Source of the DNA: Rhodoflexus caldus
Lineage (GTDB): Bacteria > Bacteroidota > Bacteroidia > Cytophagales > Thermoflexibacteraceae
Assembly (NCBI RefSeq): GCF_021206925.1
Contig: NZ_JAJPRF010000002.1
Span: 434,001-498,000 of the forward strand
Direction: 5' to 3'
DNA: 64,000 bases
The notes under the pieces were generated by a model. The model saw nothing but the letters and a program-made list of their open reading frames with translations. It searched no databases and was not told where the DNA came from. Below, piece after piece: positions 10,688-57,483 of the stretch; the stretch's first letter is position 1; the number at the start of each line of letters is the position of its first letter. The position numbers and the translations under genes are program-made.

Positions 10688-10709
10688 ACCGTAAGGGTTT
10701 AAGGTGATA

Positions 10710-33656: not shown

Positions 33657-36600
33657 TTACTGCACAACAAACGCCCTGCGATGCTGTACACCTCCGTGCT
33701 CAATGGTTGCTATGTAGGTACCGGCAGGCAAACGGACAGAAAGCTCGAGTGAACTGCGCCCCTCCGCATTTACCGACAGATTATTTTGCCAGACAATTCT
33801 GCCCGTTAAGTCGCTGATGGTCATTTGTACAGACTTTCCTGCTGCCTGATGTATCATGACGGACAAACTGCCGCCATCGGAAGGGTTCGGATAAAGTACA
33901 AGCTCCACTTGTTCATCAGCCCCCATGCGCAGGGCTACAATGCGCGAGAAGGAGAATGTGCCATCGGTATCTACCTGACGCAAGCGATAGTAGGAAATTC
34001 CACGCAGGGGCTCTGTGTCTATCCAGTGATAATTTTGCCTGATGCGGGTCGTTCCTCGGCCTGCCACTCTGCCTATCTCGGTAAAATCGCTTCCATTTTG
34101 GCTGCGCTCTACGGCAAAATAGTCATTGTCAATTTCGGTAGCTGTTTCCCATTGTGTGAGTACGGTGCCGTCGTTTTGTGTATCGGCACGGAAAAATACC
34201 AACTCCACAGGTAAGGGGTTATTGGGGATGAGGCTGCCCAGCGTAAACGGAGAAAAAGTTGTTACCGCATCGGCAGCACGCAGTATGCCGCGGGTCATGG
34301 TACCGGTGAATGCTTCATTGCCTTCATCCCACCAGCGGGTATCGCCGCCGCGATTCTGCCAATGTGCCACCCGCAACTGTCCTTCCTGCGTTACACCGCC
34401 GCTGCGGGGCGTATCCCAGCTCAGTGTGATTTTCACCGCATTGCCTGCTCCTGTACTGCCGGCTACTTTTTCAATATCCCAATATTCCACTTCACTTACG
34501 CGGTTTAACGGTGGCCGTTCTATGAGCGAGGTGTTATAGCCCGGCACATTAGGATTGACGGGAAAATATTCTGCCGATATAATTGTTGCAGGGTCAGTAG
34601 GTGCGGTAATACCTGCCGGAGCATACCAACGCGTGCTTGCATCAATCACTTTGCCTACGGGAAACATGAAAGCCGTATTACCGACCTTTTGTACTCGCCC
34701 GTTTACAAAACTATTGTTACTCGGGCCGGGCGCTCCGGGGAATGTACCGGGGCCTGCTACCGTACCCGTAGTAAGAAACACCATTATCTGATTGGTCAGC
34801 GGACTGACAATGCCATTGGTGAAATTGGCCTCGCGCGTAATGCGGCAATTGTCCTCTATCGTAAAGCCCAGCGCATTGGTAAAGGTAATATCGTAAAACG
34901 CCGAGTTGTTGGTCAGGATGCGCTGGGTGGTGTTATCAACAGTATTGCCATTGAGAATCACGCGTCCGTTGCGTGCAGTAAATGTACCGCCGTTGTTGAG
35001 CCAATGCCTACCCAGGGTAATATTAAAATTGGAAGCCGAAGCATCCAGCGTATTGTTGTTTTCAATCAGCAAATCGCCACGGATATCCACATTGTGCAGC
35101 AGCAACTTAGTAACCGCCGCTCCGCCTGAAATTAACCGCACATGCCCATAGCTGAACGGTACACCGCCCGTATTTTGTCCTGCAATGTTATTGCCTGCCT
35201 TGTCGGAGTTGAAAATAACGAAGTTTTTGGGCGATAAAGTGGCTTCTAAGTTGATACTGCCAAACTGATTGGGGAACAACGTAGCTACACCGCTCACGCC
35301 TTGCGTACCTAAGGTAAGCCGACCGTCATTTTCCATCAACATGTTGCCCGAAGGTGTACCCGTTATTTGCAAGCCGTTGTCTATCAAATGGTTAAAGTCA
35401 AAAATAGACAAGTTACCGTTGATTCGCAGCAGATTGTCGGTGGTGTTGGTCTGGACGGTTTTATTAATCAATGGGGCGGCTACATTGAATTTCCTGAATT
35501 CTACATTACCGTACACAGGCTCAGACGAAACGGGCTGGGCATCATCCGAACCGTAAAGAACCGTACTGCTTGCGTTAAGGTTAATATTTGCCCGCACATA
35601 GTTCAACGGGAAAAGCGTAGGCGTTCCATTAGCCGCTACATGGTCAAGTTCAAGGCGGCTGTCGGCTTCCATTATCATTTGCCCTGTGGCACTGCCTGTC
35701 AGTTGGAAACCGTTATCGCGCAGATTGTTGCGTTGATTAATCCGCAGGTTGCCGCGTACCCGCGTAGCTCCCAAAAGGGTTTTTACCGCAACCACAGAAA
35801 GGTCTTGGCTGTTAATGGTCAAATTCCAGTAAGAAGTATTGTCGTTATTGTTGAAAGCTGCCACATTTTGCGGCACGGAAGCGTTGTAGGTAACGGTAGA
35901 ATTAGGTTCTAACAACCGCGCCGTGAAACCCTCGGGAAAATTGGTGGCAATAGCGGTATTTCCCAGTGTTAAAAAGCCGCCTTCTGCTGCCGAAGCCCCG
36001 CCCCTGATGGTAACGGTGCCGCCTGATGCCGTGCGTGAAATTTGCGAGCCGTTATCTGCCAAATTGTTGAATGCATTGATTGTCAGGTCGCGTTGCAGGC
36101 TTACCGGATTAGTAGGCACAAAAGTTTTGACTACTATCGGCAGGGCATTATTGGGGTTATTGAGCAGTATGGAGCCATATTGCGGTGCGGTGCTCATTTG
36201 CTGATTTACACCGGCGTTATAAACGGTCAGGTTGCCTGCATTAATGTTAAAAGTGGTAAAATTGATAGGGAATTGAGTGGCTGTGGCGGCAGTACCCACT
36301 ATAAGTTGGGTGAGGTCTTCCATGGTCAAAGGGCCTCCTGCCGTTACTCTGCTGATTTGGAAGCCGTTGTCAATCAGGTGTGCCCGTGCGCGGACGGCAA
36401 GTTCTACCCGCACATTCAGAGGGCCACCAGATACTATTTTATCAAACCGTTCTGCTCCCGTAGCTCCAATCACGGCAACCTCCAAATTACCGTAGGTAAT
36501 ATTCCCTCGCACCTGTTGCGTAGCAGTGGCTACGTAGCTCACCCACGAATTAGTGCCAAGATTCACCTTCGCATCCGAATAAGAGGGGAATACGGTAGCT

Positions 36601-39600
36601 ACGTCAGGAGCAACGTTCGGAGGCAGCACAATGCCTTGCGGCAAATTATTGACAGGTACAAAACTGCTGTATTGCACGTTTGTTCCTTTGCCGCTGCCTA
36701 AAAAAATACGTGCATTGGTAGCGTCCTGTGTGTTGATTTCATTACCCGCATGTGTATTGCCGGTGATTAGGAAACCCATATCCCTAAAATAGGTATTGTT
36801 GCGGACGGCCAGCGTGCCGTTTACCACAATGGGAGCCGTTAGCGGTTTATTGGCAATATTATTACCGCTGCTCAACAGTAAGGTTCCGTAAGTGATATTG
36901 CCCTGAACCAATTGCGAGCGCGCACTGCTGTATTGTACGATAGCCGCATTGTTATTGTCCGCCGGGTCAACGTCTAAAAAGTTGCTGACATAACCAAGAG
37001 GTATGCCCTGCCCTATGGAAATGTTGGTAAAGCAAGTAGGAAATACCGTAGCGGAACCGTCTACATTGCCGCCGCCGAGTTGCAGTTTGGTATTATTTGC
37101 CAATGTAATGGTACCAATAGTGTTGCCTCTGATTTGGTTGCCGTTGTCGCGCACCTCCCCTGCCTCTATGCTGAAATTGTTAAGAATGGAAATGCCGTAA
37201 TCCTGAATGTTGAGCACTCGCCCTGCCGCAACGGCTGTTTTATTGACCGTTAGGTTATAAAACGGGCTGCTTGCAATCGTCGTACAGGCATCGTTGGCAC
37301 CATAAGTAGCCGAATTGTAAGCACTCAATACCTGTGCGGCAGTAGTGCCGTTGAACCGCACCGTACCTGTACCGGGATTAAATACAGATGTGTTCAGCGG
37401 TGCAACGGGAGGCGAAATTGTCCAGTTGCCCGTTAGATTAATTGTGTGCGTCTGCGCCTCAACCGTGCCGTGTTGAATGGTAAAACTGCCGCCGTCGTTA
37501 ATGGAGAGGTTATCGGCCAACTGCCATGTATCGTTATTGTTGTTAAAAATCAGGTTGCCACGCAGCGGAATACCGCCCCAGTTGAGTGTCTTGGTTGAAC
37601 CTGCGGTTACACCTGTCAGCTCAATCGCTCCCAGAAAGTTGTTGGTGAGCGCTGCACCTGCCCAGTTCACACTGCCATACAATTGCATCACACGGGTGGC
37701 AATACCGCTGAGTGTGGCAGGGTTTGTACTGCTCCAAATCATAGACTTGGCAAAAACGGTAGGCTGGTCTATGGTAACGGTGCCACCCGCAGGAAAGGAG
37801 TTGTTGTCAAAAATTACGTCTGTATCGGGGGAAGGAATACAACCCGACGGCGCGCCGCCACTTGTCAGCGACCATCGGTTAGGGTCGCTCCAATTGCCTG
37901 TTCCGCCAATCCAGTAAAGCGGAACGCCAAGGTTGGCACTCAATGTAGTAAAACCCGTGTTGTTGCCTATGTCGCTGGCTGCCGTTGCGTTTACCGTACC
38001 TGCGGCAATATTGATGTCCTGCAAAATAGCACCCACCCAGTTTTGCGCTGCTGCACCAAATGACAGATTGGTCTGCACACCCGCCAGCGTTGAACTTAGG
38101 CGAATCCACGATGCACAATCGGCATTCAGCAGGAAGTTGTTTGCAAAGGTAAAAGTTTGCCCACTACCAAATCGGAAGGTGCTGAAAACATTGGCAGTCA
38201 GGTTGTTAAAACTGCTTGTGGTCGTAAAATTGGCATTAGAAGATGCTCCGATGCTTACATCGCTAAACGCACAGGCCGCACTTACGGTAAGGTTGCTGTT
38301 TGTGCCGATGTTCATTGCGCTGCCGACTGCAAAATCAATGGAACTGCCGATAGCGGCCGTCGTTGCATTGGGGAAAGTGATAGTACCGTTTACAATATCC
38401 CGATTAGGACTGGCAAGCGTGCTGCCGTTCCATGTAACATTTTTGGCAGCTGCCGTACTGGTAACGGTGATATTGTTAAACGTACGAAGCGTCGTCCCAT
38501 TAATGGTCAGATTGGCTTTGGTAGAAGTAATATTGCCGAACGTGATTCTGTTTGTGCTTGTTCCCGTGTTAATTATGGCCGTAGCCGTTGCGCCCCCGGC
38601 AGTATTAAACTCTATGGGTGGCAGGGTTTTCGTGAGAGTTCCCGTGTTGATGGTTACGTTGCCGTTACCGGTAGCACGCAATACAGAGCTGCCGGGATTA
38701 AAGGTAATGTTATTGCCTGTCAGGTCTAATACGACAGCATTAGCCCGCACAATGTGTATGGCGTTGCCCATGTTCAGTGTGCGCAGCAAGTCGCTTGCCA
38801 AGCCTGCATTGATAATATTGACATCCAACACCTGATTGTTGGTGTTCAAAGTGCCCTGAACCAAACTCAGCGTACCGACTAAATAGAACTGGTCTTGCAG
38901 CGTCCAACTGCCGGAGCCAAAGAAATCGGTATTATTCAATCGCTTACCTGCCATCGTAATGGTTGCCGGATTGTCTGAAACAAATTGAACCGTACCGGTG
39001 TAAGTAGGTGCGGCTCCTGTTTGGTTCATGGCCGCAATAAAAGTCAGCGAACCTCCAATGGTTAATTGTTGGTTACCGGCCAATGAAGGCGTAAATAATG
39101 CGCCCGTCCAGTTCATGTTATTGCAAAAGGCAGGGATATCTACGGTAACGCTTTGCCCCGCTGCACTGAATGAATTGGCATCAAAAAAAACATTATCGGT
39201 AATGTTGGGCGTACAACCCACAGGTGCGCCGCCACTGCTCAACGACCATCGGTTGCCATCGCTCCAATTGCCTGTGCCGCCTATCCAGTAAAAATCCCGA
39301 GCCGTAGAGACGAATGTAAACTGTCCGCTATTACCGCCAAGGTTAGCCCCGTTGTCAATGGTCAGCATATTGCCCGAATTATTCAGGTCGCGCACATTCA
39401 AGCCATTGACCGTCTGCGCCGTACCGATACTGATATTGGCAGGGCTGCCGACGTTAGCAGAACGCCAGTTTACAGGTGCGCTGCAACTTGCGGTAATATT
39501 TATGGTGCCGTTGATAATGGTTGGCAAAGTGGCAGCGGGGTTTACCTGCAATACCGAACCGGGCGGCATGGTGATATTGTTAAGCGTTAGCTGTGCCGTA

Positions 39601-40886
39601 GCACCTGCCTGACCGGCAATAATCCAACCATTGGCCGCAAGTGTAAGCGAGGAAGAGGCATTAAAAACATGTTGAACAGTGGCGGCAGTAAACTCAATGC
39701 GGCCGTTATTGCCCAATGTTACCGCTCCATTAAACGTAGATTGATTGGTGAATTGCAAAATGGAGTTGAAGCCTACCCCACTGCTGCCGATGGTAATATT
39801 GCCGTTAAATACATTTCGGCTGTTAAAAATTAGCCTTCGGTTGTTTCCCGTATAATTGCCTGCCGTAATATTGCCATTGAAAGTATTGACAGAAGCGGTA
39901 GCGCCTGTAAAGGTAACTTGATTATTATCGCCTAACGTGATATTCTGATAAGTTTTGGGGCGGGTGCTGTTGATAGTGAATGTGCTGTTGGCACGTGCCA
40001 AGTTAATATTGCCAAACTGCAAGGGATTGGCACTGTCATTACTATTAATGGCAACCGTAGTATTGGCAGTCGTAGGGTTGCTGAAATTGAGAGGCGCTCC
40101 GTTAAAATTTGCCAGCGTACCCATCACAACCGTAATGTTGCCTGCATTGGTAAACTCAAAGTTCGTAGCCGAATTGATGTTCAGAGTAAATAAAGCGCTG
40201 TTATTGGCAGACAGGTCAAGTACCGTTCCCGTACCGGTGATAGTAATGCTCGAGCCGTTTAAGGTTAAAGAACGCGTAGGTACAGGGGCAGGCTGTGCAG
40301 GAACTAATAAAGCAGCCGCACTAATGGCTTGCCCATTCGTATTGAATCCTCCCTCGAGCAGCCTGATATTATTGGTTACGGTCAAAGGGCCGGCAAGTTG
40401 AAAAACACTGCCCAACTGCGCTGCCGTAACATCTAATGCAGCCAATGTTTGCCCGGCTGTTGTTACAGTCCAAGTACCCGTAAGCCCCCTAAGAACGACC
40501 GTTCCCGCAAACGTGTAGTTCATGGCAGGAATCAGCGTCAGATTGCTGTAAACGGTCAGTGTAAAAGCATTCGTTCCGGTAAGGGTAGGATTGTTGGCAG
40601 CACCTACCCACGACATAGACCTACACGCTGCATTTACGTTGATAGTTACGGTTTGCCCTGCCGCGGTGAAAGAGTTGGCATCAAAATAAACATCGTCCGA
40701 AATACCCGGCAGCGTAGTGTGCAAATTGGCAGGCAGCGTGCTGCCCGATACTTTTGACCAATTGGAAAGATTGTTCCAGTTACCTGTACCGCCCACCCAG
40801 TAGTAATCCGCCGCTTGCAGATTAGCGCATAGAAGCAAGATAAGTAATAATAAGAGGTAATAGGAGTTGATAGTGCGTAATCGCAT
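33657..40886 (-). CDS. Giant secreted beta-repeat protein with T9SS sorting domain
   Basis: A 2409-residue exported protein. The signal peptide (YYLLLLLILLLCANLQA) is followed directly by YYWVGGTGNWNNLSNWS, the first of three modules of about 460 residues that start near 26, 530 and 987; the later two read YWIGGTGNWSD..RWSL.SGGAP.GC. From about 1240 to 1840 six shorter repeats occur every 105-135 residues, each with a DNGxQIxG core (RDNGNQIRG, IDNGFQISR, RDNGFQLTG and others), followed by TxFPxxF. A fibronectin-like unit lies near 2230-2310. The last 85 residues (VLYPNPSDGGSL, LPAGTYIATIEHGG, FVVQ) form a type A T9SS sorting domain. Probably a large adhesin or extracellular-matrix filament; it stands alone with its own promoter. 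Confidence 0.85.
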   Translation of the reverse strand: MRLRTINSYYLLLLLILLLCANLQAADYYWVGGTGNWNNLSNWSKVSGSTLPANLHTTLPGISDDVYFDANSFTAAGQTVTINVNAACRSMSWVGAANNPTLTGTNAFTLTVYSNLTLIPAMNYTFAGTVVLRGLTGTWTVTTAGQTLAALDVTAAQLGSVFQLAGPLTVTNNIRLLEGGFNTNGQAISAAALLVPAQPAPVPTRSLTLNGSSITITGTGTVLDLSANNSALFTLNINSATNFEFTNAGNITVVMGTLANFNGAPLNFSNPTTANTTVAINSNDSANPLQFGNINLARANSTFTINSTRPKTYQNITLGDNNQVTFTGATASVNTFNGNITAGNYTGNNRRLIFNSRNVFNGNITIGSSGVGFNSILQFTNQSTFNGAVTLGNNGRIEFTAATVQHVFNASSSLTLAANGWIIAGQAGATAQLTLNNITMPPGSVLQVNPAATLPTIINGTINITASCSAPVNWRSANVGSPANISIGTAQTVNGLNVRDLNNSGNMLTIDNGANLGGNSGQFTFVSTARDFYWIGGTGNWSDGNRWSLSSGGAPVGCTPNITDNVFFDANSFSAAGQSVTVDIPAFCNNMNWTGALFTPSLAGNQQLTIGGSLTFIAAMNQTGAAPTYTGTVQFVSDNPATITMAGKRLNNTDFFGSGSWTLQDQFYLVGTLSLVQGTLNTNNQVLDVNIINAGLASDLLRTLNMGNAIHIVRANAVVLDLTGNNITFNPGSSVLRATGNGNVTINTGTLTKTLPPIEFNTAGGATATAIINTGTSTNRITFGNITSTKANLTINGTTLRTFNNITVTSTAAAKNVTWNGSTLASPNRDIVNGTITFPNATTAAIGSSIDFAVGSAMNIGTNSNLTVSAACAFSDVSIGASSNANFTTTSSFNNLTANVFSTFRFGSGQTFTFANNFLLNADCASWIRLSSTLAGVQTNLSFGAAAQNWVGAILQDINIAAGTVNATAASDIGNNTGFTTLSANLGVPLYWIGGTGNWSDPNRWSLTSGGAPSGCIPSPDTDVIFDNNSFPAGGTVTIDQPTVFAKSMIWSSTNPATLSGIATRVMQLYGSVNWAGAALTNNFLGAIELTGVTAGSTKTLNWGGIPLRGNLIFNNNNDTWQLADNLSINDGGSFTIQHGTVEAQTHTINLTGNWTISPPVAPLNTSVFNPGTGTVRFNGTTAAQVLSAYNSATYGANDACTTIASSPFYNLTVNKTAVAAGRVLNIQDYGISILNNFSIEAGEVRDNGNQIRGNTIGTITLANNTKLQLGGGNVDGSATVFPTCFTNISIGQGIPLGYVSNFLDVDPADNNNAAIVQYSSARSQLVQGNITYGTLLLSSGNNIANKPLTAPIVVNGTLAVRNNTYFRDMGFLITGNTHAGNEINTQDATNARIFLGSGKGTNVQYSSFVPVNNLPQGIVLPPNVAPDVATVFPSYSDAKVNLGTNSWVSYVATATQQVRGNITYGNLEVAVIGATGAERFDKIVSGGPLNVRVELAVRARAHLIDNGFQISRVTAGGPLTMEDLTQLIVGTAATATQFPINFTTFNINAGNLTVYNAGVNQQMSTAPQYGSILLNNPNNALPIVVKTFVPTNPVSLQRDLTINAFNNLADNGSQISRTASGGTVTIRGGASAAEGGFLTLGNTAIATNFPEGFTARLLEPNSTVTYNASVPQNVAAFNNNDNTSYWNLTINSQDLSVVAVKTLLGATRVRGNLRINQRNNLRDNGFQLTGSATGQMIMEADSRLELDHVAANGTPTLFPLNYVRANINLNASSTVLYGSDDAQPVSSEPVYGNVEFRKFNVAAPLINKTVQTNTTDNLLRINGNLSIFDFNHLIDNGLQITGTPSGNMLMENDGRLTLGTQGVSGVATLFPNQFGSINLEATLSPKNFVIFNSDKAGNNIAGQNTGGVPFSYGHVRLISGGAAVTKLLLHNVDIRGDLLIENNNTLDASASNFNITLGRHWLNNGGTFTARNGRVILNGNTVDNTTQRILTNNSAFYDITFTNALGFTIEDNCRITREANFTNGIVSPLTNQIMVFLTTGTVAGPGTFPGAPGPSNNSFVNGRVQKVGNTAFMFPVGKVIDASTRWYAPAGITAPTDPATIISAEYFPVNPNVPGYNTSLIERPPLNRVSEVEYWDIEKVAGSTGAGNAVKITLSWDTPRSGGVTQEGQLRVAHWQNRGGDTRWWDEGNEAFTGTMTRGILRAADAVTTFSPFTLGSLIPNNPLPVELVFFRADTQNDGTVLTQWETATEIDNDYFAVERSQNGSDFTEIGRVAGRGTTRIRQNYHWIDTEPLRGISYYRLRQVDTDGTFSFSRIVALRMGADEQVELVLYPNPSDGGSLSVMIHQAAGKSVQMTISDLTGRIVWQNNLSVNAEGRSSLELSVRLPAGTYIATIEHGGVQHRRAFVVQ

Positions 40887-40902
40887 AGCTGTATTTTTTC
40901 AA

Positions 40903-45584: not shown

Positions 45585-46139
45585 TTAATTGGAACGATAT
45601 TTTTCTAACGGAATCGTAATGCGCTCGTTGGTGATAACCGCGTGCGGATAAACAGACTTAATTTGTGTATAAAGCGCAAACGCATCGGTTTTATTAAAAA
45701 AATTACCTAATTTTACCCGAAAATTAGGCTGTTCGTAAACCAATTCGGGTATTTCGGTAGTTATTTTTCGCACATCTGTCATCACCTTATTGGCCTCATC
45801 CCGATTGCCGCCCGAATAAATCACCAATCGGAAACCTTGCGAAAATTTAAGGTTTTTATTGCTTGCCGCTATTGCTTCACGCATGGCATTCAGTTGTGCC
45901 TGAATAGTACCTGATACACTGACGGTTTGGGTATTTTGCATGGGGGGTGTTGCATTATTGGCCGGCGAATTGCTTTTTTGCTCCGGCTCTGCCACTCGTG
46001 GCCGATAAGCACTCAAATCCATCGTAAACGGTGGTGCATAAGTAACAGTTGATGCGCTTTTGCAAGCAACCGCCAATGCATATATAGTTATCAGGCCTGC
46101 AAATCGGCTAAGATTTCTTTTGATAATACGCCTCCTCAT
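45585..46139 (-). CDS. SPOR-domain lipoprotein
   Basis: A 184-residue protein starting MRRRIIKRNL, with signal sequence and lipobox LAVAC (lipid on Cys26). A proline/asparagine-rich linker follows, then from about 105 a SPOR-type domain: GFRLVIYSGGNRDEANKVM, PNFRVKLGNFFNKTDAFALY and a final VITNERITIPLEKY. SPOR domains bind denuded septal peptidoglycan, so a cell-envelope or division role is likely. The reading frame is open 17 codons further upstream but overlaps the start of the divergent polyketide-synthase gene. A 17-bp palindrome lies in the divergent gap. Confidence 0.8.
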   Translation of the reverse strand: MRRRIIKRNLSRFAGLITIYALAVACKSASTVTYAPPFTMDLSAYRPRVAEPEQKSNSPANNATPPMQNTQTVSVSGTIQAQLNAMREAIAASNKNLKFSQGFRLVIYSGGNRDEANKVMTDVRKITTEIPELVYEQPNFRVKLGNFFNKTDAFALYTQIKSVYPHAVITNERITIPLEKYRSN

Positions 46140-46154
46140 TTCTTGTTTTTTTAC

Positions 46155-46171
46155 TAACTTGATGCAAGTTA
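46155..46171. promoter_or_regulatory. Candidate operator palindrome
   Basis: TAACTTG-ATG-CAAGTTA is a perfect palindrome with a 3-bp centre, placed midway between the divergent starts at 46139 and 46189. The position suits a dimeric repressor controlling one or both genes. No promoter consensus is clear here. Confidence 0.4.
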
Positions 46172-46188
46172 ATAATAAAAACTGCTTC

Positions 46189-47313
46189 ATGCGTAAACCT
46201 CATATTACTGCCATCGGAACGGCAGCGCCCGCACACGAAATCAGGCAGGAAATTGCCCCCGAGTGGGTAACTACCTCATTGGCACTCCCGCCGTCTGAAG
46301 CACGCAAAGTACGGCTGATTTACAGAGCAACCGGCATACAAACCCGTTACAGCGTTGTTCCCGACTTCAGCAGTATGGAACGCCGCGAACTGTTTCCTTT
46401 GACAGAAAACTTAGAACCATTCCCTACAACAGCCGACCGCATGGCTGTTTATAAGCGCGAAGCACCGCTACTCGCCTCTCAGGCTATCCAAAATATGCAA
46501 CTTCCTGCCGATTATTTCAGCAAAATAACCCATTTAATTACCGTCAGTTGCACAGGCATGTATGCCCCCGGTCTGGATATTGACTTGGTGCATCAACTCG
46601 GATTGCCGCCGCATGTACAGCGCACCTGCATTTATTTTATGGGTTGTTATGCGGCTTTTAATGCACTGAAAACCGCTGAGACCATTTGCAGGGCATACCC
46701 CGATGCCAAGGTATTGATTGCCGACATAGAACTTTGCAGCCTTCACTTTCAGAAAATCAATACCGAAGACCAACTGCTGGCAAATGCCATTTTTGCCGAC
46801 GGTGCAGCAGGTGTGCTGGTAGAATCCGTAACACCTGACAAGGGGCTACTTTCACTGGAAGGTTTCTACAGCGGCCTGATTCCCGAAGGAAGCAGCGAAA
46901 TGGCTTGGCACATAGGCGATTTTGGATTTGAAATGAAACTCTCTTCCTATGTACCCAAACTTTTGGGCGGCAAAATCAAATTTTTTATCGAAAAAATAAG
47001 AGAGCAGTTAGAAATACCATCCGATGCGATAGATTATTTTGCTTTCCACCCGGGCGGCAAAAAAATTCTGACCGAAATAGAAGCAGGTCTTGGTATTTCG
47101 CCACATGAAAACAGGTGGGCATACGACGTGATGAAACGATACGGGAATATGTCATCAACCACCATCCTTTTTGTTTTGCAGCACCTGATGGAAACACTGC
47201 GCAAAGAAAATTACCAACAAGGCGCGCAGGTACTGGCCGCTGCCTTTGGCCCCGGTTTAACTATGGAATCTGCCATGCTCCACCTGCAAAACCTCGACTT
47301 TCGCCATGCCTGA
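46189..47313 (+). CDS. Type III polyketide synthase (chalcone/stilbene-synthase family)
   Basis: A 374-residue homodimer-type enzyme that condenses malonyl-CoA units onto an acyl-CoA starter. The catalytic triad is visible: Cys121 (ITVSCTGMYAPGLD), His287 (YFAFHPGGKKIL) and Asn320 (YGNMSSTTILF), together with the family's GFGPG-like loop near the end (AAAFGPGLTME). The longest frame starts 43 codons upstream inside the divergent gene; the start at MRKPHITAIGTAAP fits the family. The downstream methyltransferase overlaps by 8 bp, so the two act together, probably making and methylating an alkylresorcinol, pyrone or quinone-like product. The product is inference. Confidence 0.92.
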   Translation: MRKPHITAIGTAAPAHEIRQEIAPEWVTTSLALPPSEARKVRLIYRATGIQTRYSVVPDFSSMERRELFPLTENLEPFPTTADRMAVYKREAPLLASQAIQNMQLPADYFSKITHLITVSCTGMYAPGLDIDLVHQLGLPPHVQRTCIYFMGCYAAFNALKTAETICRAYPDAKVLIADIELCSLHFQKINTEDQLLANAIFADGAAGVLVESVTPDKGLLSLEGFYSGLIPEGSSEMAWHIGDFGFEMKLSSYVPKLLGGKIKFFIEKIREQLEIPSDAIDYFAFHPGGKKILTEIEAGLGISPHENRWAYDVMKRYGNMSSTTILFVLQHLMETLRKENYQQGAQVLAAAFGPGLTMESAMLHLQNLDFRHA

Positions 47314-48010
47314 CTTCAGCCGCCGCAGCTATGAGCCCGAACTGATGGACGACCTGACCCTTGGCAACGAGGCACTTGCACAAAACCTGCGCGAACTGGA
47401 ATATGTCAATACGTATTTGGGGGGTAATGCAGTAGCGGCCAAAGGGTTGCAATATTTTGTTAGGCAAAGTAAGTTGCCGCTTTCTGTGGCAGATGTCGGC
47501 TGCGGTGGCGGCGATACGCTGCGCTACTTTGCCCAATGGGCACAAAAGCGCAACATCCCGCTGCAACTGGCAGGCTACGATGCCAACCCTTTCATGGTAA
47601 ACTATGCATGTACACACCCCCGAAACCATCCCTCCATCAGTTACCACTGCATAGACCTTTGGTCAGAAAAATTTGACAATGTGCAGCCCGATGTATTTAT
47701 GTTGAGCCTTTTCTGCCACCATTTTACGGACGAGGAACTTGTACACCTGTTGGGTAAACTGTTGCAACAAGCACACAAAGGAATCATTATCAACGACTTA
47801 CATCGGCATCCGCTGGCTTATTACAGCATCAAATGGCTGACTCGCGGTCTGCGAGGTTCTTATTTGGTACAAAACGATGCGCCGCTGTCGGTCTTGCGGG
47901 CTTTTCGCAAAAAGGAATTGGAACAACTGTTACAACAAGTAGTTCCGCACGGCCGATTCCGCATCAGTTGGCATTGGGCTTTTCGCTATTTGGTGTTGAT
48001 TGAGAAGTAG
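47306..48010 (+). CDS. Class I SAM-dependent methyltransferase partnered with type III PKS
   Basis: A 234-residue methyltransferase. SAM motif I is [11 protein letters not shown] (about residues 61-71), followed by [13 protein letters not shown] and the post-motif [21 protein letters not shown]. The C-terminal third ([26 protein letters not shown]) is family-specific. PKS plus methyltransferase pairs of this type, often followed by a FAD oxidoreductase, recur in Bacteroidota; the oxidoreductase is missing here. The 3' end overlaps the convergent DnaJ-domain gene by 47 bp. Confidence 0.88.
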
Positions 48011-51015: not shown

Positions 51016-51876
51016 TCAATAAGTTTTCGTCATGTCCGACGGAATCGCTACTATAAAATTGGCTTTATTGAGTGCATCTTTGGAGAGCGCACCAATGTCG
51101 TCCTGCTCTGAAACACTGATAGTCAGGATGTTAAGTCCGGGTTTATAGCGGTTCAGATACCAAATAATGCCCTCGAAATTGTCGGAGTGATAGGAGCCGT
51201 TGAAGTGGATAATCAACTTGCCTTTTTCCCAAACGCGGGCTGTGTGATAGCCCATGGTAGCATCTTTAGAGGCCTGTGCGGCTACCATGTTATCGCTCAT
51301 TGCGCCACCGTGGCCACCCATCATTGCCACCATGTTTTTATAGCCGGGCAACTCCCTGTCTAAGGGAATAGGCAGTGGAGGCAGCATTTTTTTGGCTTCG
51401 GCATCTAATTTTTCAAGGCTGCTCAATCCCTGCGCAGCTACCATAGAAGCATAACGCCGCGGAATATTACTCGCCACAAAAGGCAGTTTATTTTGCTTGG
51501 CAAAATTGACCAAGGGTTTATAGTCCGTTGCGTAATTGTTCCAAATTTTGGCTTCTTTCTCAAAATTGCTTTCCTTAATCAGGCCGCCGAGGTACTCGTT
51601 CAATACCAATTGGTCATCGGCTTCAAACATTTCGGCTGCCAGCACCAGTCTGTCGCCTACGGCTTTGTGCAAATCTTTGGTGAGCCGCAACTGCAACCAG
51701 TGGCAAATGGGATTGTTGTGGCTTTCTCCGAAAAATACAACATCGGCTTTTTGAGCGGCAGCCAATAAATCGCTGTACTGCACCGCTTTTCCGTTGCGGT
51801 CATACAGCAAATAAGCGGGGTTGTCCTGCATAGCCATCAGGGGAATGAACAGAAGGGAAAGCAATAGTTTTTTCAT
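51016..51876 (-). CDS. ChaN/EreA-like exported protein
   Basis: A 286-residue protein with a signal peptide (MKKLLLSLLFIPLMAMQ) that lacks a lipobox cysteine, unlike the ChaN lipoproteins. The core has VVFFGESHNNPICHWLQLRL, AAEMFEADDQLVL, and later MMGGHGGAM and HFNGSYHSDNFEGI, the ChaN pattern in which conserved Glu and His residues can bind haem or metal. Function unsettled for the family. It follows the mevalonate kinase-like gene by 19 bp and is therefore the last gene of the mevalonate operon, although no biochemical link is apparent. Confidence 0.8.
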   Translation of the reverse strand: MKKLLLSLLFIPLMAMQDNPAYLLYDRNGKAVQYSDLLAAAQKADVVFFGESHNNPICHWLQLRLTKDLHKAVGDRLVLAAEMFEADDQLVLNEYLGGLIKESNFEKEAKIWNNYATDYKPLVNFAKQNKLPFVASNIPRRYASMVAAQGLSSLEKLDAEAKKMLPPLPIPLDRELPGYKNMVAMMGGHGGAMSDNMVAAQASKDATMGYHTARVWEKGKLIIHFNGSYHSDNFEGIIWYLNRYKPGLNILTISVSEQDDIGALSKDALNKANFIVAIPSDMTKTY

Positions 51877-51895
51877 GGCAAATATTCAAAATTGA

Positions 51896-52852
51896 TTACA
51901 AACGATAGGCAATGCGCGACTGATAGTCTTCCAGATGGCCGCGGGTTGCAGTAAAATCTTTAGTAAATCCAAGAATGAAGCCCCCCCCGCCTGCGCCGCA
52001 AAGTTTGAGGTAGTACAACCCAGAATCAAGCCCGTATTGCCAAATTTGCCGGAACAATGGCGGAATCATCTGGTTGAGATGCTGCAATTGAAAGGCCGAA
52101 AGTTTGGCAAGCTCATCAAACAAATTATCGGTTTGGCCTGCAAGTAAATACCGAATACAATTTTCATTGTATGGAATCAGTTCGTTTCTGCAAAGTTCTG
52201 CAAACTCCTGATTTTGCATTTTTTCCAGAAACAGGTTTACCAAAGGCTCTGTTTTGCGCGGCCTTCCCGTATTGAGCAAGAATATTCCGCCGCAATTGGT
52301 GGTTGGACGAGGCAACTGTACGGTTTCAATATGCGTTTTGCTGCGAATCAGCAGCGGCAAGTCCAAGTAGCAAATCAACGGGTCTACTCCCGAACTGGAA
52401 CCGTGAAAATGGGACTCCATCTCCGCAAAAATCTTTTTCAGTTGTACGATTTCATCATTGCTCGGGTGGCCGTTGTGCGCAATTTTATCGTACACGTAGC
52501 GGTCGTACAAAGCGGCCGTAAGCGCCCCCGAACTGCCTACGCCGAACCCTTGCGGAATATTGGACTGAAAATAAAGCCCCTGCGCCACGTCAAACTCCAT
52601 CGAGTTGATATCAAAGTCAAAACTGAGCGCCTGCTGCCGCTTGCGCAGTTTCATGTAGTCGCAAAAGGCTTTTAGTTCGCGATTGGACTGGTCTATTCGG
52701 CGCGAACTGTCGGTGATGTGTTTGAGTACCAGCCGCCCTTGAAACAGCGGATAGGGCAAGGCAAGCCCCATGGAGTTGAGAATCAGGCTGTATTCGCCAA
52801 AAAGCAGGACTTTGGAATGAAAAGTCGGAGAATCAGTATTAGAATAAGTCAT
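51896..52852 (-). CDS. Mevalonate kinase-type GHMP kinase
   Basis: A 318-residue GHMP kinase. Motif 1 is KVLLFGEYSLI near the N-terminus, motif 2 (ATP loop) PQGFGVGSSGALTAALYD, with HGSSSGVDPLICYL carrying the base region, and motif 3 LCGAGGGGFILGF. Its place directly after the decarboxylase gene (14 bp) fits mevalonate 5-kinase, the first ATP step after HMG-CoA reductase. Because the operon holds two GHMP kinases and two kinase steps must be covered, either could in principle act on phosphomevalonate; I prefer mevalonate kinase here. Confidence 0.82.
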   Translation of the reverse strand: MTYSNTDSPTFHSKVLLFGEYSLILNSMGLALPYPLFQGRLVLKHITDSSRRIDQSNRELKAFCDYMKLRKRQQALSFDFDINSMEFDVAQGLYFQSNIPQGFGVGSSGALTAALYDRYVYDKIAHNGHPSNDEIVQLKKIFAEMESHFHGSSSGVDPLICYLDLPLLIRSKTHIETVQLPRPTTNCGGIFLLNTGRPRKTEPLVNLFLEKMQNQEFAELCRNELIPYNENCIRYLLAGQTDNLFDELAKLSAFQLQHLNQMIPPLFRQIWQYGLDSGLYYLKLCGAGGGGFILGFTKDFTATRGHLEDYQSRIAYRL

Positions 52853-52866
52853 TGCTGTGCCTGCGA

Positions 52867-53922
52867 TTAATTAAACAGTTGCGGCCCTGTACCTACGCCG
52901 TCGTGAATGTAGCGGTTTTCCTGACAATACCCGGCCAGTCGGTCGGCAATAAATGCGTGAATTTCAACCTGATAAGCCAACGGATAAAGCAAATGAACAT
53001 TCGGCCCCGCATCGAGTGTGAAGGTCAGCGGAATGCGAGTATCGCGGCGGAACGCGCGAAGTTCTTCAATCACGGCAAGGGTGGCAGGCTTCATCAAGAT
53101 GAATGAAGGGTTAGAGTTCATCATCAAGCCATGCAGTGTAAGTGCTTCACTTTCAACAATTTGAATAAACTCTTCTATATCGCCGCTTTTCAGTACGTCC
53201 AGCAATCGGCGAAGGTTGTGTCGTGCTTGTTCATAACGAACCGCCGCAAACGGGTGGCCGTTCATCAGCGCATGACCGGCACGACTGGAAACGGCTTTTT
53301 CTTCACCGCTGATAATCAGGATGGTATCGCAAAAAGTGGCAAAAGACGGGTGAACCTGTTGTGTTTCCAAAGGAATGGCAAACAAGTCTGAACTGCCGGG
53401 CAGTTCGGGAGTTGCACCCCAAACTGTGTAACCGCCGTAAATGGAGCGACAGGCACTGCCCGATGCCAGCCTTGCCCAATTGGAGGCTTTTTGCAGGGCT
53501 TGCTCAGGGCTGCCCAAAAAGACACCTTGCTTTTGGGCAAGTGTGGCCAAACACATGGCAAGTGCCCCCATGCTGGAAGCGGAAGAGGCGATACCGGCAG
53601 AGTGAGGGAAGGAATTGAGCGACTTGATTGTCAGTTGCAAACCTTCGGTGAAGGCAAAATCTTCCGATAGGCTTTCCAGAAATTGTACAATTTTCGCCTT
53701 GAATTTCTCGTTAGGCTTGCCTTCAAAATAAAAATCAATGGTGCGGCTCCCGCTCTCCGACGGGCGGTACAAAAGCTGCATATCGGTGTAGGACTGCCGC
53801 AGCGTAAAACTCAGCGAAGGATTTTGAGGAAGTTGTACGCCGTGTTTTCCCCAGTATTTTACCAAAGCGATATTGGAAGGAACACGCCAGTATATGACTT
53901 GCTCTTGCGGGTGTAGTGCCAA
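52867..53922 (-). CDS. mvaD: Diphosphomevalonate decarboxylase
   Basis: A 351-residue enzyme that converts mevalonate diphosphate to isopentenyl diphosphate with ATP. The motifs are complete: PSNIALVKYWGKH, SLSFTLRQSYTD, ASSASSMGALAMC as the phosphate loop, ARLASGSACRSIYGGYTVW, and the catalytic aspartate in FTLDAGPNVHLLY. It lies in the middle of the mevalonate operon, 42 bp after the GYDVA kinase and 14 bp before the next kinase. Confidence 0.93.
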   Translation of the reverse strand: MALHPQEQVIYWRVPSNIALVKYWGKHGVQLPQNPSLSFTLRQSYTDMQLLYRPSESGSRTIDFYFEGKPNEKFKAKIVQFLESLSEDFAFTEGLQLTIKSLNSFPHSAGIASSASSMGALAMCLATLAQKQGVFLGSPEQALQKASNWARLASGSACRSIYGGYTVWGATPELPGSSDLFAIPLETQQVHPSFATFCDTILIISGEEKAVSSRAGHALMNGHPFAAVRYEQARHNLRRLLDVLKSGDIEEFIQIVESEALTLHGLMMNSNPSFILMKPATLAVIEELRAFRRDTRIPLTFTLDAGPNVHLLYPLAYQVEIHAFIADRLAGYCQENRYIHDGVGTGPQLFN

Positions 53923-53964
53923 AACAAAACCGTTTTAGGTGAAAAGAAATAAACCGCGGCAAAT

Positions 53965-54945
53965 TTAGGATATTGCAATGGCAGTGCCGTGCTCGTTTTC
54001 TACATTTCTTTCCTCGCGTTCAGATGCTTTAATCATTTCGGTATAGGTCAGCATCACGTCAAAACCCTTTTCGGCAAAATATTGTCGCGTTTCAGCTTCG
54101 GTACGGCTGCTCGTAGCCAATACGAAATCGCCTCCCCACGCTCCCAGCGACTTAATTTCTCCCCAAAAGTCTTTGAAAAACAAGTCTTTGGTACGTGTAA
54201 GGTGCAGGCTTTGCGCAATAAGCGACTCGTGCTTTTCTATCAGCCTGTCAAACTGTTCAAGGGTTTCGGCGCGAAGAAACTCCTGTGTAATCTGCGTGAG
54301 TTGCTCGGCCAGCTCTGCCTTGTTGTGCCCCAGCGAACGGTAGTGCTCAATACCTGCCGCCGAGGACTGTTTTTTGCCCAAATAAACAAAATACAAATTT
54401 TGCTTAAACGGCGGGTCAAAGGTTACGGTGTGGCGGTGCGGCCCTTCTGCCGATTTTTTATACAAAATAGGCCCTTCCGCCTGTGCACAGGCTACGTCAT
54501 AGCCCGAACCGCCCAGTGTACCGAATAATAGGTCGTAAGGGTCAACTTCTGCCCACTGCGCAACGTTGTGAATAAGTGTGCTGCTGCTGCCCAAGCCCCA
54601 CCAGCGCGGAAATTCCAGGTAGGTTTCTACCAGCACATACTCGCGGCCTTTAAGAAAATTGGCAGCCAAACGGCGCGTCATGCGCAATATTTTTTGCAGG
54701 GTTAGTGACTTTTGCGATATAAACCTATCTAAGCAGTCAAAAGATTCTGTATCAAATTTTGCTTCAAACCACAGCTTACCCTCATTGTCATAGCTTTTCC
54801 AATGCAGCACTTTGTGCTCGGAAGCATGATAGGTAACTTTCAGTTTCTGACCGAAACGCGTGGGCATTGCCAGCGCAAGCGCGCCATCCAGTACATAATA
54901 CTCGCCGCTGAGCAATAATTTACCACTGCCATAAAAGTTTTGCAT
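53965..54945 (-). CDS. GYDIA-family GHMP kinase, candidate phosphomevalonate kinase
   Basis: A 326-residue GHMP kinase of the Bacteroidota-specific group named after a GYD(I/V)A motif, here GGSGYDVACAQAEGP. The N-terminus GSGKLLLSGEYYVLDGALALAMP gives motif 1 (in part) and RWWGLGSSSTLIHNVAQWA the ATP loop. Placed between HMG-CoA reductase (21 bp) and the decarboxylase (42 bp), it fills the gap where phosphomevalonate kinase is otherwise missing. The activity is inferred from operon logic. Confidence 0.8.
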   Translation of the reverse strand: MQNFYGSGKLLLSGEYYVLDGALALAMPTRFGQKLKVTYHASEHKVLHWKSYDNEGKLWFEAKFDTESFDCLDRFISQKSLTLQKILRMTRRLAANFLKGREYVLVETYLEFPRWWGLGSSSTLIHNVAQWAEVDPYDLLFGTLGGSGYDVACAQAEGPILYKKSAEGPHRHTVTFDPPFKQNLYFVYLGKKQSSAAGIEHYRSLGHNKAELAEQLTQITQEFLRAETLEQFDRLIEKHESLIAQSLHLTRTKDLFFKDFWGEIKSLGAWGGDFVLATSSRTEAETRQYFAEKGFDVMLTYTEMIKASEREERNVENEHGTAIAIS

Positions 54946-54966
54946 AGCCGAATTTGCTAAAATGAT

Positions 54967-56325
54967 TTACACCAGGGTTGAATCAGAGTCGTTATTGCGT
55001 TTAGCTTCCGCAGCTTCCCGATAGCCGTCTAAAAGGTCGCGTACAGCACTGAAAGAAACTACGTGATGTTTGAAGTGCTCTACCGCCGCTGCGGTTTCGG
55101 CCTCCGTTGCCTCAAAATGTTTGAGAATATTCATCAAGTGCATTTTCATATGCCCTTTCTGAATACCACTGGTAATCAACGATTTAACAGCACCAAAGTT
55201 TTGTGCCAGACCTATTGCGGCAGCAATTTTCATTAATTGTTCTGCATTGGGATGCCCCAAAATTTCAAAAGAACGGCGCACAATCGGGTGGAGATTGGTC
55301 AGCCCGCCAACAGTGCCCAATGCCATTGGTATGGTAATCCAAAAACGGAAAATGCCGTTTTCTACTGAACAATCGGTCAGGCTGCGATACTTGCCATCGC
55401 GGGCAGCATAGGCATGACCGCACGCCTCTACGGCGCGGAAATCGTTGCCTGTTGCCAAAACCACCGCATCTATGCCGTTAAAAATGCCTTTGTTGTGGGT
55501 AGTAGCCCTGTAAACATCGTTTTTGGCAATCATCAAGGCTTTTTGAAACTTAAACGCAAAAGTTTCGGCATCCATTTCGTCAAAATTACCCAAGTCGGCA
55601 ACGGGACATTCTACCCAAGCCTTTACCAGACACTCCGGCGTATAGTTGGAAAGAATGGACATAATGACCATTGGGTTGCGCTCTTTTTCGTTGAAGCCTT
55701 CCTGTTCGGCTGCCCACTGCTTAAATGTGCGGGCAAACTCTTCTAAACAGGTATTGATGAAGTTCGCACCCATTGAGTCGCAGGTTTCAAAAGTGGCTTT
55801 GAATTGGTAATAATGCGGCTCAATGTGTGTCATATTGACCAGTTCTATATCTACGATACCGCCGCCGCGTTGGCGCATATTCTTGGTAATCAGGGCGGTA
55901 TTATCCAGCATTTTTTCTTTCAGGTCGTCAAACAGCACGTCTAATTTCAGGAAATCGCCCTCCCACAAGAAATGCACCTGACCGATTTTTTTGGTACTGA
56001 TAATTTCCGCTTTAAATCCGCCGCGGGTTTGCCAAAACTTAGCGCTTTGAGATGCCGCCGCTACTACCGAACTTTCTTCAATCACCATCGGAACGGCATA
56101 CAGTTCGCCATTTAACAAAACATTAGGGGCTACGCCAAAAGGCATGTAAAAGTTGGTCAGTGTGTTTTCGCTGAATTCGTCAAACAGCTTTTGCACGGCG
56201 CGGTCGGCATGCCAATAGCTTTTCATTTCATCAATAAAAGTCTGTGGCTCATCGCTGACTTGGCGGGCTAACCATTCTAACTTTTGTTCTTTGCTCAATT
56301 TTGAGTACCCTGAGATGGTTTGCAT
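54967..56325 (-). CDS. mvaA: Hydroxymethylglutaryl-CoA reductase, class II type
   Basis: A 452-residue enzyme that reduces HMG-CoA to mevalonate. Characteristic stretches are NFYMPFGVAPNVLLNG, PMVIEESSVVAAAS with catalytic Glu, CDSMGANFINTC, the Lys region ALMIAKNDVYRATTHNKGI, the NAD(P)-binding GTVGGLTNLHP and the late His-containing IQKGHMKMHL. It resembles class II (bacterial, often called degradative) reductases, but the operon with later mevalonate enzymes shows a biosynthetic role. It follows the isomerase gene by 59 bp. Confidence 0.93.
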   Translation of the reverse strand: MQTISGYSKLSKEQKLEWLARQVSDEPQTFIDEMKSYWHADRAVQKLFDEFSENTLTNFYMPFGVAPNVLLNGELYAVPMVIEESSVVAAASQSAKFWQTRGGFKAEIISTKKIGQVHFLWEGDFLKLDVLFDDLKEKMLDNTALITKNMRQRGGGIVDIELVNMTHIEPHYYQFKATFETCDSMGANFINTCLEEFARTFKQWAAEQEGFNEKERNPMVIMSILSNYTPECLVKAWVECPVADLGNFDEMDAETFAFKFQKALMIAKNDVYRATTHNKGIFNGIDAVVLATGNDFRAVEACGHAYAARDGKYRSLTDCSVENGIFRFWITIPMALGTVGGLTNLHPIVRRSFEILGHPNAEQLMKIAAAIGLAQNFGAVKSLITSGIQKGHMKMHLMNILKHFEATEAETAAAVEHFKHHVVSFSAVRDLLDGYREAAEAKRNNDSDSTLV

Positions 56326-56384
56326 AGTGATGAATTAAAAGTGATGCACTAAAAGGATGATGTTGAGCGATTGTTTGTTTGGTT

Positions 56385-57467
56385 TTATCGGACTTTCAAA
56401 TATTGCTGCGCATAGCTGTAGCCCTTGATTTGCAAGGAGATATAGCGATGCAAAAGTTCGTAGTTTTCGCGGGCATATTTCAAAAAGCCGGAAGCCTGCC
56501 CGTAAACAGCCGGCATATTTAACCGATGAATCAGGTAGTAGCCGTCCAGAAAGTTGCGTACACCACCCGAAATAATCACCTGTCGGCACAGGCAATGTTC
56601 GCCCAGTTGAGCGAGTACTTCGTTGGCAAAATCAACCATTTCTGCGGCCGAATGCCCGACTGTACTCAGGCAATCGTAGGCATTTTTTTGTTCTTCATCG
56701 GAACGGAGCAGTTCCAGCAAAGCAAAGTTAGTACCGCCTGCTGCGGCAAAGTCCACAGCCGCCAAGGGCAACCTAAACAATGCCCGAAGGCTCTCCGGCC
56801 CCATACCCTGCCCGACTTCTTTTACAATCACAGGCATTTTTGTGAGGGACAGGACTTCCTCTATGATTTGCAGGGGAGGATTCTCGAGCAAATCTCCCTC
56901 GGGTTGCAGCCACTCCTGCGTAGGGTTGATGTGGATAATCAGACCATCGGCTTGCAGGCGGGCAACCATTTCCTCGGCCACATGCCACTGATTTTTTTGC
57001 AACAACTGCTCTACCTGCGCAATGCCCAAATTGGCAAATAACGGTACATCAAAGCCCATCACAGGGCGAACGTTGAAGTCTGCAAAATGTTCGTCGGAGT
57101 ACAACAGCGAACGACAAGACCCCAATCCCATCCCAAAACCAAACTCCCCGCAGGCACGCGCCAGATTGGTATTAATCGTCCGCGCCATCTGTGTGCCGCC
57201 TGTCATGCTGGAAACCCACATCGGCACGTTGAAGGTTTTTCCCAAAAAGTTGAGAGGCTCTACTCCTCGGGGATGAGCAGCAAGGACAGGTTCATAGAAA
57301 AAACGGCTGTCCAACTGCGCCTGAGTAACCTGCGAATGAAAGGCCATATCAATATGGTCTTTTTTGCGGGAAACTGCCGTAGGGTCGTTATCAGCTATTT
57401 TGTCCGGTGTATTTGTCAAGATAATCGTTTCCAAAAGATTACAGAAAGTAGGTGCGCGCAGAGGCAC
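56385..57467 (-). CDS. fni: Type 2 isopentenyl-diphosphate delta-isomerase
   Basis: A 360-residue FMN- and NADPH-dependent enzyme interconverting IPP and DMAPP. Motifs: SRKKDHIDMAFHSQV, PMWVSSMTGGT, GMGLGSCRS, HINPTQEWLQPEGD, VIVKEVGQGM, VDFAAAGGTNFALLE and ISGGVRNFLDGYY, covering FMN and substrate binding. The call of the start is uncertain: the frame opens with a GTG at 57467, only 8 bp after the -7 box, and about 35 residues precede the first conserved motif, so a start further in is possible. First gene of the mevalonate operon. Confidence 0.92.
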   Translation of the reverse strand: MPLRAPTFCNLLETIILTNTPDKIADNDPTAVSRKKDHIDMAFHSQVTQAQLDSRFFYEPVLAAHPRGVEPLNFLGKTFNVPMWVSSMTGGTQMARTINTNLARACGEFGFGMGLGSCRSLLYSDEHFADFNVRPVMGFDVPLFANLGIAQVEQLLQKNQWHVAEEMVARLQADGLIIHINPTQEWLQPEGDLLENPPLQIIEEVLSLTKMPVIVKEVGQGMGPESLRALFRLPLAAVDFAAAGGTNFALLELLRSDEEQKNAYDCLSTVGHSAAEMVDFANEVLAQLGEHCLCRQVIISGGVRNFLDGYYLIHRLNMPAVYGQASGFLKYARENYELLHRYISLQIKGYSYAQQYLKVR

Positions 57468-57475
57468 ACGTATTA

Positions 57476-57483
57476 CAAAGCTA
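57476..57483 (-). promoter_or_regulatory. -7 element of the mevalonate operon
   Basis: Minus strand reads TAGCTTTG, an exact TAnnTTTG match directly before fni. A TTG lies 27 bp further up, longer than the usual spacing. Confidence 0.45.

Follow-up and report, generated by a model that had tools for sequence, protein, structure and literature searches.

According to the accessible passages of a 2014 Elizabethkingia genome paper (PMC4026382), E. anophelis and F. branchiophilum carry all the enzymes of the mevalonate pathway except phosphomevalonate kinase (PMK) and have no methylerythritol phosphate (MEP) pathway; as PMK is the only exception, both do have, on that account, a 3-hydroxy-3-methylglutaryl-CoA (HMG-CoA) synthase. 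The same passages call the PMK gap general in Flavobacteriaceae and guess at a non-orthologous GHMP kinase. All Legionella species analysed lack PMK, and most also lack HMG-CoA synthase, as stated in an excerpt of a 2026 review (PMC13001223). The present analysis concerns a stretch of 64,000 nucleotides from Rhodoflexus caldus (Bacteroidota; contig NZ_JAJPRF010000002.1, positions 434,001 to 498,000; hereafter the window), in which six genes form a putative lower mevalonate operon. Two GHMP kinases are encoded there, one at 53965-54945, which bears a GYDVA motif (the GYDVA protein), and one at 51896-52852. Comparison of their sequences makes it very probable that the GYDVA protein is the PMK of the operon and the 51896-52852 protein its mevalonate kinase (MVK).

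Flavobacterium johnsoniae, a member of the same phylum, was reportedly found by Hayakawa et al. in 2017 to have a general mevalonate pathway with two kinases that are remote relatives of those already described; in R. caldus, by comparison, the genes sit in one six-gene operon. The function of a GYDIA-type kinase may already be published for F. johnsoniae. A literature search on the GYDIA name listed only mole-cricket and mate-discrimination topics. With the assignment proposed here, the GYDIA family, which is functionless in NCBIfam, gains a concrete candidate substrate and the two unusual kinases of the operon can be told apart. The family would also fill the PMK gap described for Flavobacteriaceae in the accessible passages of PMC4026382.

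The operon and its GYDIA-family kinase

The source genome comprises 3.96 Mb in 40 contigs, with a completeness rating of 100%. The six operon genes, followed by the two genes next to them, are:

56385-57467, minus strand: type 2 isopentenyl-diphosphate isomerase (IDI2); TIGR02151, 190.3 bits (cut-off 281.3); GTG start, frame open upstream to 57494
54967-56325, minus strand: HMG-CoA reductase; PF00368, 287.5 bits; TIGR00532, 242.7 bits (cut-off 259.95); the best model is of the degradative (class II) type
53965-54945, minus strand: GYDIA-family GHMP kinase (GYDVA protein), proposed PMK; NF040656, 377.1 bits (cut-off 225)
52867-53922, minus strand: decarboxylase of the diphosphomevalonate decarboxylase type (MvaD); TIGR01240, 166.1 bits (cut-off 171.35); TTG start
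51896-52852, minus strand: GHMP kinase, proposed MVK; TIGR00549, E 7.6e-20, 71.5 bits (cut-off 163.05)
51016-51876, minus strand: ChaN-like protein, last operon gene; PF04187, 209.9 bits
57647-58663, minus strand: LuxC-like acyl-CoA reductase homologue, 179 bases upstream of the isomerase gene; PF05893, 34.8 bits
58716-59618, plus strand: HMG-CoA lyase, divergent from the operon; NF004283, 331 bits (cut-off 246)

The six genes are tightly clustered, with intergenic gaps of 14-59 bases, and their identities are concordant between Pfam and NCBIfam. The isomerase, HMG-CoA reductase, decarboxylase and two GHMP kinases announced by the original prediction are thus all present, on the minus strand. 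The closest named relatives of the GYDVA protein, from a Cytophagales metagenome-assembled genome (MAG) (L100, 95% identity over the best segment) and a Bernardetiaceae MAG (L101, 85%), are encoded within the identical six-gene set, in identical order, again with the LuxC-like gene and the divergent HMG-CoA lyase gene upstream. This conserved order indicates that the operon is not a chance arrangement, and the six genes are presumably co-transcribed. The LuxC-like and lyase genes are conserved neighbours of the operon, any role of theirs in the pathway being hypothetical. As for the ChaN-like gene, which had been described as ending the operon without known link, no mechanistic link to the pathway was found; L100 and L101 have it at the same position, and in another locus, L105, ChaN and GYDIA genes lie one gene apart. 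Promoter-like sites (10 in the window, 9.9 expected) and terminator-like sites (15, with 10.7 expected) were not used as evidence.

In the proposed route, HMG-CoA reductase would yield mevalonate, the 51896-52852 kinase would phosphorylate its 5-hydroxyl, and the GYDIA-family kinase would add the second phosphate onto phosphomevalonate. The decarboxylase would then convert the diphosphate into isopentenyl diphosphate (IPP), which IDI2 would turn into dimethylallyl diphosphate (DMAPP). By homology, the GYDIA kinase would follow the usual GHMP chemistry, with Asp150 and Lys9 as catalytic residues, a glycine-rich ATP loop at residues 117-122 and a third motif at 265-273.

The GYDVA protein is a full-length member of NF040656, matching the profile from 1 to 299 of 299 positions, and is the only match of this profile in the whole genome. 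NCBIfam names the family 'GYDIA family GHMP kinase', classes it as a hypoth_equivalog and gives no function; in a Pfam scan the protein goes unrecognised, even as a GHMP kinase. The view that it has no assigned activity therefore holds as far as NCBIfam is concerned, but the protein belongs to a named family, which passes the cut-off in 35 of the 247 genomes sampled from the phylum, and hence is not peculiar to this operon. Its identity to 31 other aligned family members ranges from 34 to 96%, and the variant GYDVA, in place of GYDIA, is common to several relatives. The GHMP catalytic residues and ATP loop are present (K9, GLGSSS at 117-122, S147, D150, KSLGAWGGD at 265-273): S147 and D150 are invariant in the family alignment and K9 nearly so, while S-x-x-D and motif III are conserved in all 32 GYDIA rows. 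The roles of these residues are drawn from mevalonate kinases, as given in the accessible text of PMC10910542.

The lack of a classical PMK in the operon, claimed previously, finds support: the GYDVA protein matches neither TIGR01219 nor TIGR01220, and PF00288 shows no further candidate, hitting only three places in the whole genome, namely ThrB, the 51896-52852 kinase and the decarboxylase. No classical PMK was found in this genome-wide PF00288 search, TIGR01219 and TIGR01220 being confined to the window proteins; as PF00288 is blind to the GYDVA protein, an equally diverged further kinase could also escape it.

Which kinase acts on phosphomevalonate

The idea that one of the two GHMP kinases must act on phosphomevalonate is supported, and both profile scores and motif III favour the GYDVA protein for this role. 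Reference sets were taken from three Bacteroidota genomes (G159, G227 and G235, three of the four that match NF040656 weakly) that encode a fusion of HMG-CoA reductase with MVK, together with a separate kinase; the matching kinase lies between MvaD and the fused reductase. The fused protein of L140, the one scanned among the three, scores 247.1 bits with TIGR00549 (cut-off 163.05), and the best model of the separate kinase is TIGR01220 in all three cases (147.6, 129.2 and 140.7 bits, cut-off 165.7). As the fused protein is an MVK by TIGR00549, the separate kinase would be the PMK by elimination. Loci L140, L141 and L142 all show this fusion adjoining a PMK-like kinase and MvaD, in genomes that have DXR and no HMG-CoA synthase match.

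Aligned with hhalign, the GYDIA family matches the PMKs with a probability of 96.8 (E 2.8e-10, 265 columns) and the MVKs with 85.8 (E 5.4e-6, 153 columns), whereas the 51896 family matches the PMKs with 56.1 (E 1.1e-4, 200 columns) and the MVKs with 89.9 (E 1.7e-6, 272 columns). The scores cross: in these alignments the GYDIA family lies closer to the PMKs, and the 51896 family to the MVK domains. With the GYDIA profile, the three PMKs obtain 34.5, 33.1 and 28.9 bits, the MVK domains 19.0, 18.4 and 16.8, the 51896-52852 protein 8.6, MvaD 2.0 and ThrB 1.2. Motif III reads K-x-LGA-x-GGD in 32 of 32 GYDIA rows and KPSGAGGGD in the three reference PMKs, and ends in GGGG in the three reference MVKs and in all 18 rows of the 51896 family; GGD also occurs in two of these 18 rows, outside motif III by eye. 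The GYDVA protein, by its predicted structure, shares the GHMP fold with classical PMKs (TIGR01220, TIGR01219; 3gon, 1k47), and its GSG-x-D and GGD motifs resemble those of the reference PMKs; it differs from the classical PMKs in that neither family model matches it at E up to 1. The GYDIA kinase would be so strongly diverged as to be invisible to the classical models.

The 51896-52852 kinase carries HGSSSGVD at residues 150-157 and KLCGAGGGG at 283-291, and the stretch HG-x-[AS]-SG-x-D is common to its family and the reference MVKs. Its best NCBIfam model is TIGR00549, far under cut-off, and its best match in the PDB is the mevalonate kinase 2x7i. Compared with the classical mevalonate kinases of TIGR00549, the SSG-x-D and GGGG motifs are alike; it differs by its score (71.5 of 163.05 bits) and by GEY in place of GEH in motif I. 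The protein appears MVK-like by motif III and profile, yet falls outside TIGR00549 by score. Its predicted structure, built from three sequences with a pLDDT of 33.9, was not used.

Several observations weigh against this assignment of the two kinases. Each reference set comprises three sequences, assigned by model scores and by elimination. The failure of the classical PMK models to match the GYDVA protein also counts on this side. The AlphaFold2 model of the GYDVA protein (pLDDT 88.2, from nine sequences) matches the GHMP fold, but Foldseek ranks mevalonate kinases at all of positions 1-10, the PMK 3gon coming at rank 13 and 1k47 at rank 15. VIA-align puts at the top of its list Listeria Lin0012 (Z 25.1), which we take to be the Listeria PMK, and the S. 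pneumoniae PMK 3gon (Z 24.2, root-mean-square deviation 3.2 over 278 residues, 19% identity), yet a mevalonate kinase and the heptokinase WcbL follow at Z 24.1 and the PMK 1k47 at 22.4, values so close that the order counts as a tie. The predicted fold by itself leaves the substrate undecided. Among PDB sequences, the best match of the GYDIA profile is the M. jannaschii mevalonate kinase 1kkh (E 3.5e-10). With the 51896 profile the scores are mixed: the MVK domains reach 17-21 bits, one PMK 26.3 and the other two 6.1 and 5.8. In motif I the 51896 family has GEY, which is also the reading of the reference PMKs and the GYDIA family, while the reference MVKs have GEH. In a tree of the GYDIA family, the 51896 family, the PMKs and the MVK domains, each group forms one side of a branch; however, the join of PMK, MVK and GYDIA is unsettled, long branches meeting there, and the 51896 family stands apart on a very long branch and not with the MVKs, so that the tree was not used.

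Some of these observations would fit a swap of roles, with the GYDIA kinase as MVK and the 51896-52852 protein as PMK: the 1kkh match, the Foldseek ranking, the PMK at 26.3 bits and the GEY motif, to which can be added that the archaeal PMK model NF040957 touches the 51896-52852 protein (E 0.0011). Such a swap is nevertheless improbable in view of the crossed hhalign scores, of motif III, of the HG-x-[AS]-SG-x-D stretch present in both the 51896 family and the reference MVKs, of TIGR00549, which matches the 51896-52852 protein at E 7.6e-20 and the GYDIA protein at only 2.7e-4, and of the low scores of the other two PMKs.

Another possibility is a modified mevalonate pathway, in which the substrate of the decarboxylase would be phosphomevalonate or a 3-phosphate, a phosphomevalonate 5-kinase would be superfluous and the GYDIA kinase would serve elsewhere; this requires an isopentenyl phosphate kinase. 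Such pathways are known in haloarchaea, some Chloroflexi and Thermoplasma, according to the available part of PMC9254496. The decarboxylase falls narrowly short of the TIGR01240 cut-off, and its second-best match in the PDB, 6n0x (E 8e-35), is named diphosphomevalonate decarboxylase there and is an Anaerolinea phosphomevalonate decarboxylase according to the same part of PMC9254496. However, the models for phosphomevalonate decarboxylase (NF040704, 63.4 bits, cut-off 475) and bisphosphomevalonate decarboxylase (NF040847, 54.9 bits, cut-off 560) score below TIGR01240, and the PDB entry that the decarboxylase matches best, 3lto (E 4e-37), bears the name mevalonate diphosphate decarboxylase, all of which makes this pathway decidedly unlikely here. 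The catalytic Asp is present (DAGPNVH at residue 304, aligned with PDB decarboxylases); this residue is common to DMD, PMD and MBD, as far as the available part of PMC9254496 goes, and cannot separate DMD from PMD.

Distribution of the GYDIA family in the phylum

Among the 247 sampled genomes of the phylum, NF040656 scores above cut-off in 35, matches weakly in 4 and is without match in 208. The comparison covered 59 genomes, that is the 35 carriers (R. caldus included), the 4 weak genomes and 20 listed without match. MvaD is found in all 35 carriers at E 4.9e-30 or better and strongly in three of the four weak genomes, the other 21 having none (best E 2.7e-5). DXR is distributed the other way round: all 24 non-carriers have it, at 118 bits or more, and 33 of the 35 carriers have no match. 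In the two remaining carriers, frames of 666 and 683 amino acids give matches of 23 bits (cut-off 21.7), which we take as false. GYDIA accompanying MvaD in every carrier and DXR showing the reverse pattern, the family is associated with the mevalonate pathway and with the absence of DXR. Among the nine genomes listed from the same order, none has GYDIA and all have DXR.

Of the 34 other carriers, 26 have an HMG-CoA reductase gene adjoining that of the GYDIA kinase (the flanks covered being 1.5 kb in 29 carriers and about 6-9 kb in 5), and a 51896-family gene adjoins MvaD in 15 of 20 fetched regions. In these 15 of 20 regions, all from other genomes with the NF040656 family, the MVK-like gene and MvaD are paired with each other but separate from the GYDIA gene, either elsewhere in the genome or at a distance of some kb, whereas here all are in one operon. 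Eight GYDIA loci were inspected (L100-L107, with short flanks for L104 and for the upstream side of L102): L106 has part of the set, IDI2 and the reductase, beside the GYDIA gene, and L102, L103, L104, L105 and L107 show no other mevalonate gene within the fetched flanks. A mevalonate operon with a GYDIA kinase is probably ordinary for mevalonate-using Bacteroidota.

That the GYDIA protein phosphorylates some other small molecule, or is a non-kinase kept beside the pathway for another reason, would agree with these five bare loci, with the galactokinase and heptokinase structure matches that come nearly as high as PMK and with the absence of a function for NF040656 in NCBIfam, but is scarcely credible given MvaD in 35 of 35 carriers with convincing DXR in none, the frequent reductase neighbour and the conservation of S-x-x-D and motif III in all 32 rows.

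The source of HMG-CoA

With the GYDVA protein as PMK, the open question moves one step up the pathway, to the source of HMG-CoA: no gene recognisable as an HMG-CoA synthase turned up in 19 of the 35 carriers. The original prediction stated that this enzyme is not in the window, and indeed none was found among the window genes examined, nor in the whole genome with PF08540, PF01154 and a flavobacterial synthase query; a synthase gene that would complete the pathway from acetyl-CoA is thus lacking from the R. caldus genome in these searches. PF08540 and PF01154 each match 16 of the 59 genomes, all 16 being GYDIA carriers, and the flavobacterial query recovers these 16 together with a match of 20 bits in G002. 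Besides R. caldus, 18 of the 34 other carriers gave no synthase match, including the single-contig genomes G029, G057, G103, G118, G134, G198 and G226, and none of the 19 has a DXR match. In genus g11, 12 of 14 carriers have a synthase with 74-100% identity to the query, and G057 and G154 show no match at E 0.001. The three genomes with the fused reductase-kinase have no synthase match either; DXR is present there.

The archaeal synthase model TIGR00748 retrieved three KASIII-type proteins from the R. caldus genome, two FabH and one KASIII-like protein (L041), all judged implausible as synthases. The L041 protein (L041:943-1932) adjoins a FabG-like reductase; by eye it has TQLN in place of the HQAN motif, and the active-site histidine thus seems to be lost.

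The genome holds two HMG-CoA-lyase-like genes, one next to the operon and another at G000:C19:56421-57203, whose product is 33% identical to the first. The former is the only one over the NF004283 cut-off among the 59 genomes. A search at 1e-60 was too strict and was repeated with the window protein at E 1e-15, which gave lyase-like matches in 55 of 59 genomes (R. caldus included), those of the others at 27-34% identity, and none in the three fused-kinase genomes and G035. The beta subunit of methylcrotonyl-CoA carboxylase (MCC), searched with the R. caldus protein at E 1e-100, finds a match in every one of the 59 genomes. The top PDB hit of this protein is the MCC beta chain 8j4z (520.5 bits), with two others close behind: a chain that bears the name propionyl-CoA carboxylase (513.3) and the MCC beta subunit 3u9r (507.8). 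As a marker of the leucine route it was discarded as non-discriminating, and the neighbours in L155-L158 show no leucine operon by eye. Since MCC beta matches occur in all 59 genomes, a leucine route is possible but is not indicated by this marker.

Tentatively, mevalonate-dependent Bacteroidota, R. caldus among them, may build their isoprenoids with none of the known kinds of HMG-CoA synthase; the lower operon, including the GYDIA PMK, would then be the sole isoprenoid route of the cell, and HMG-CoA might come from leucine breakdown by way of MCC, from the lyase encoded beside the operon running in reverse or from an unrecognised synthase family. No statement of this gap in Bacteroidota was recognised in a literature search carried out mostly below full-text level. 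The missing HMG-CoA synthase is a bigger and less explained gap than that of PMK.

A few kb from the operon, the window also encodes a type III polyketide synthase (46042-47310, plus strand) followed by a methyltransferase (47261-48007, plus strand). Further away, the minus strand encodes two proteins of very large size at 4148-10732 and 33660-40898; both carry a Por secretion tail, and the first has PKD domains.

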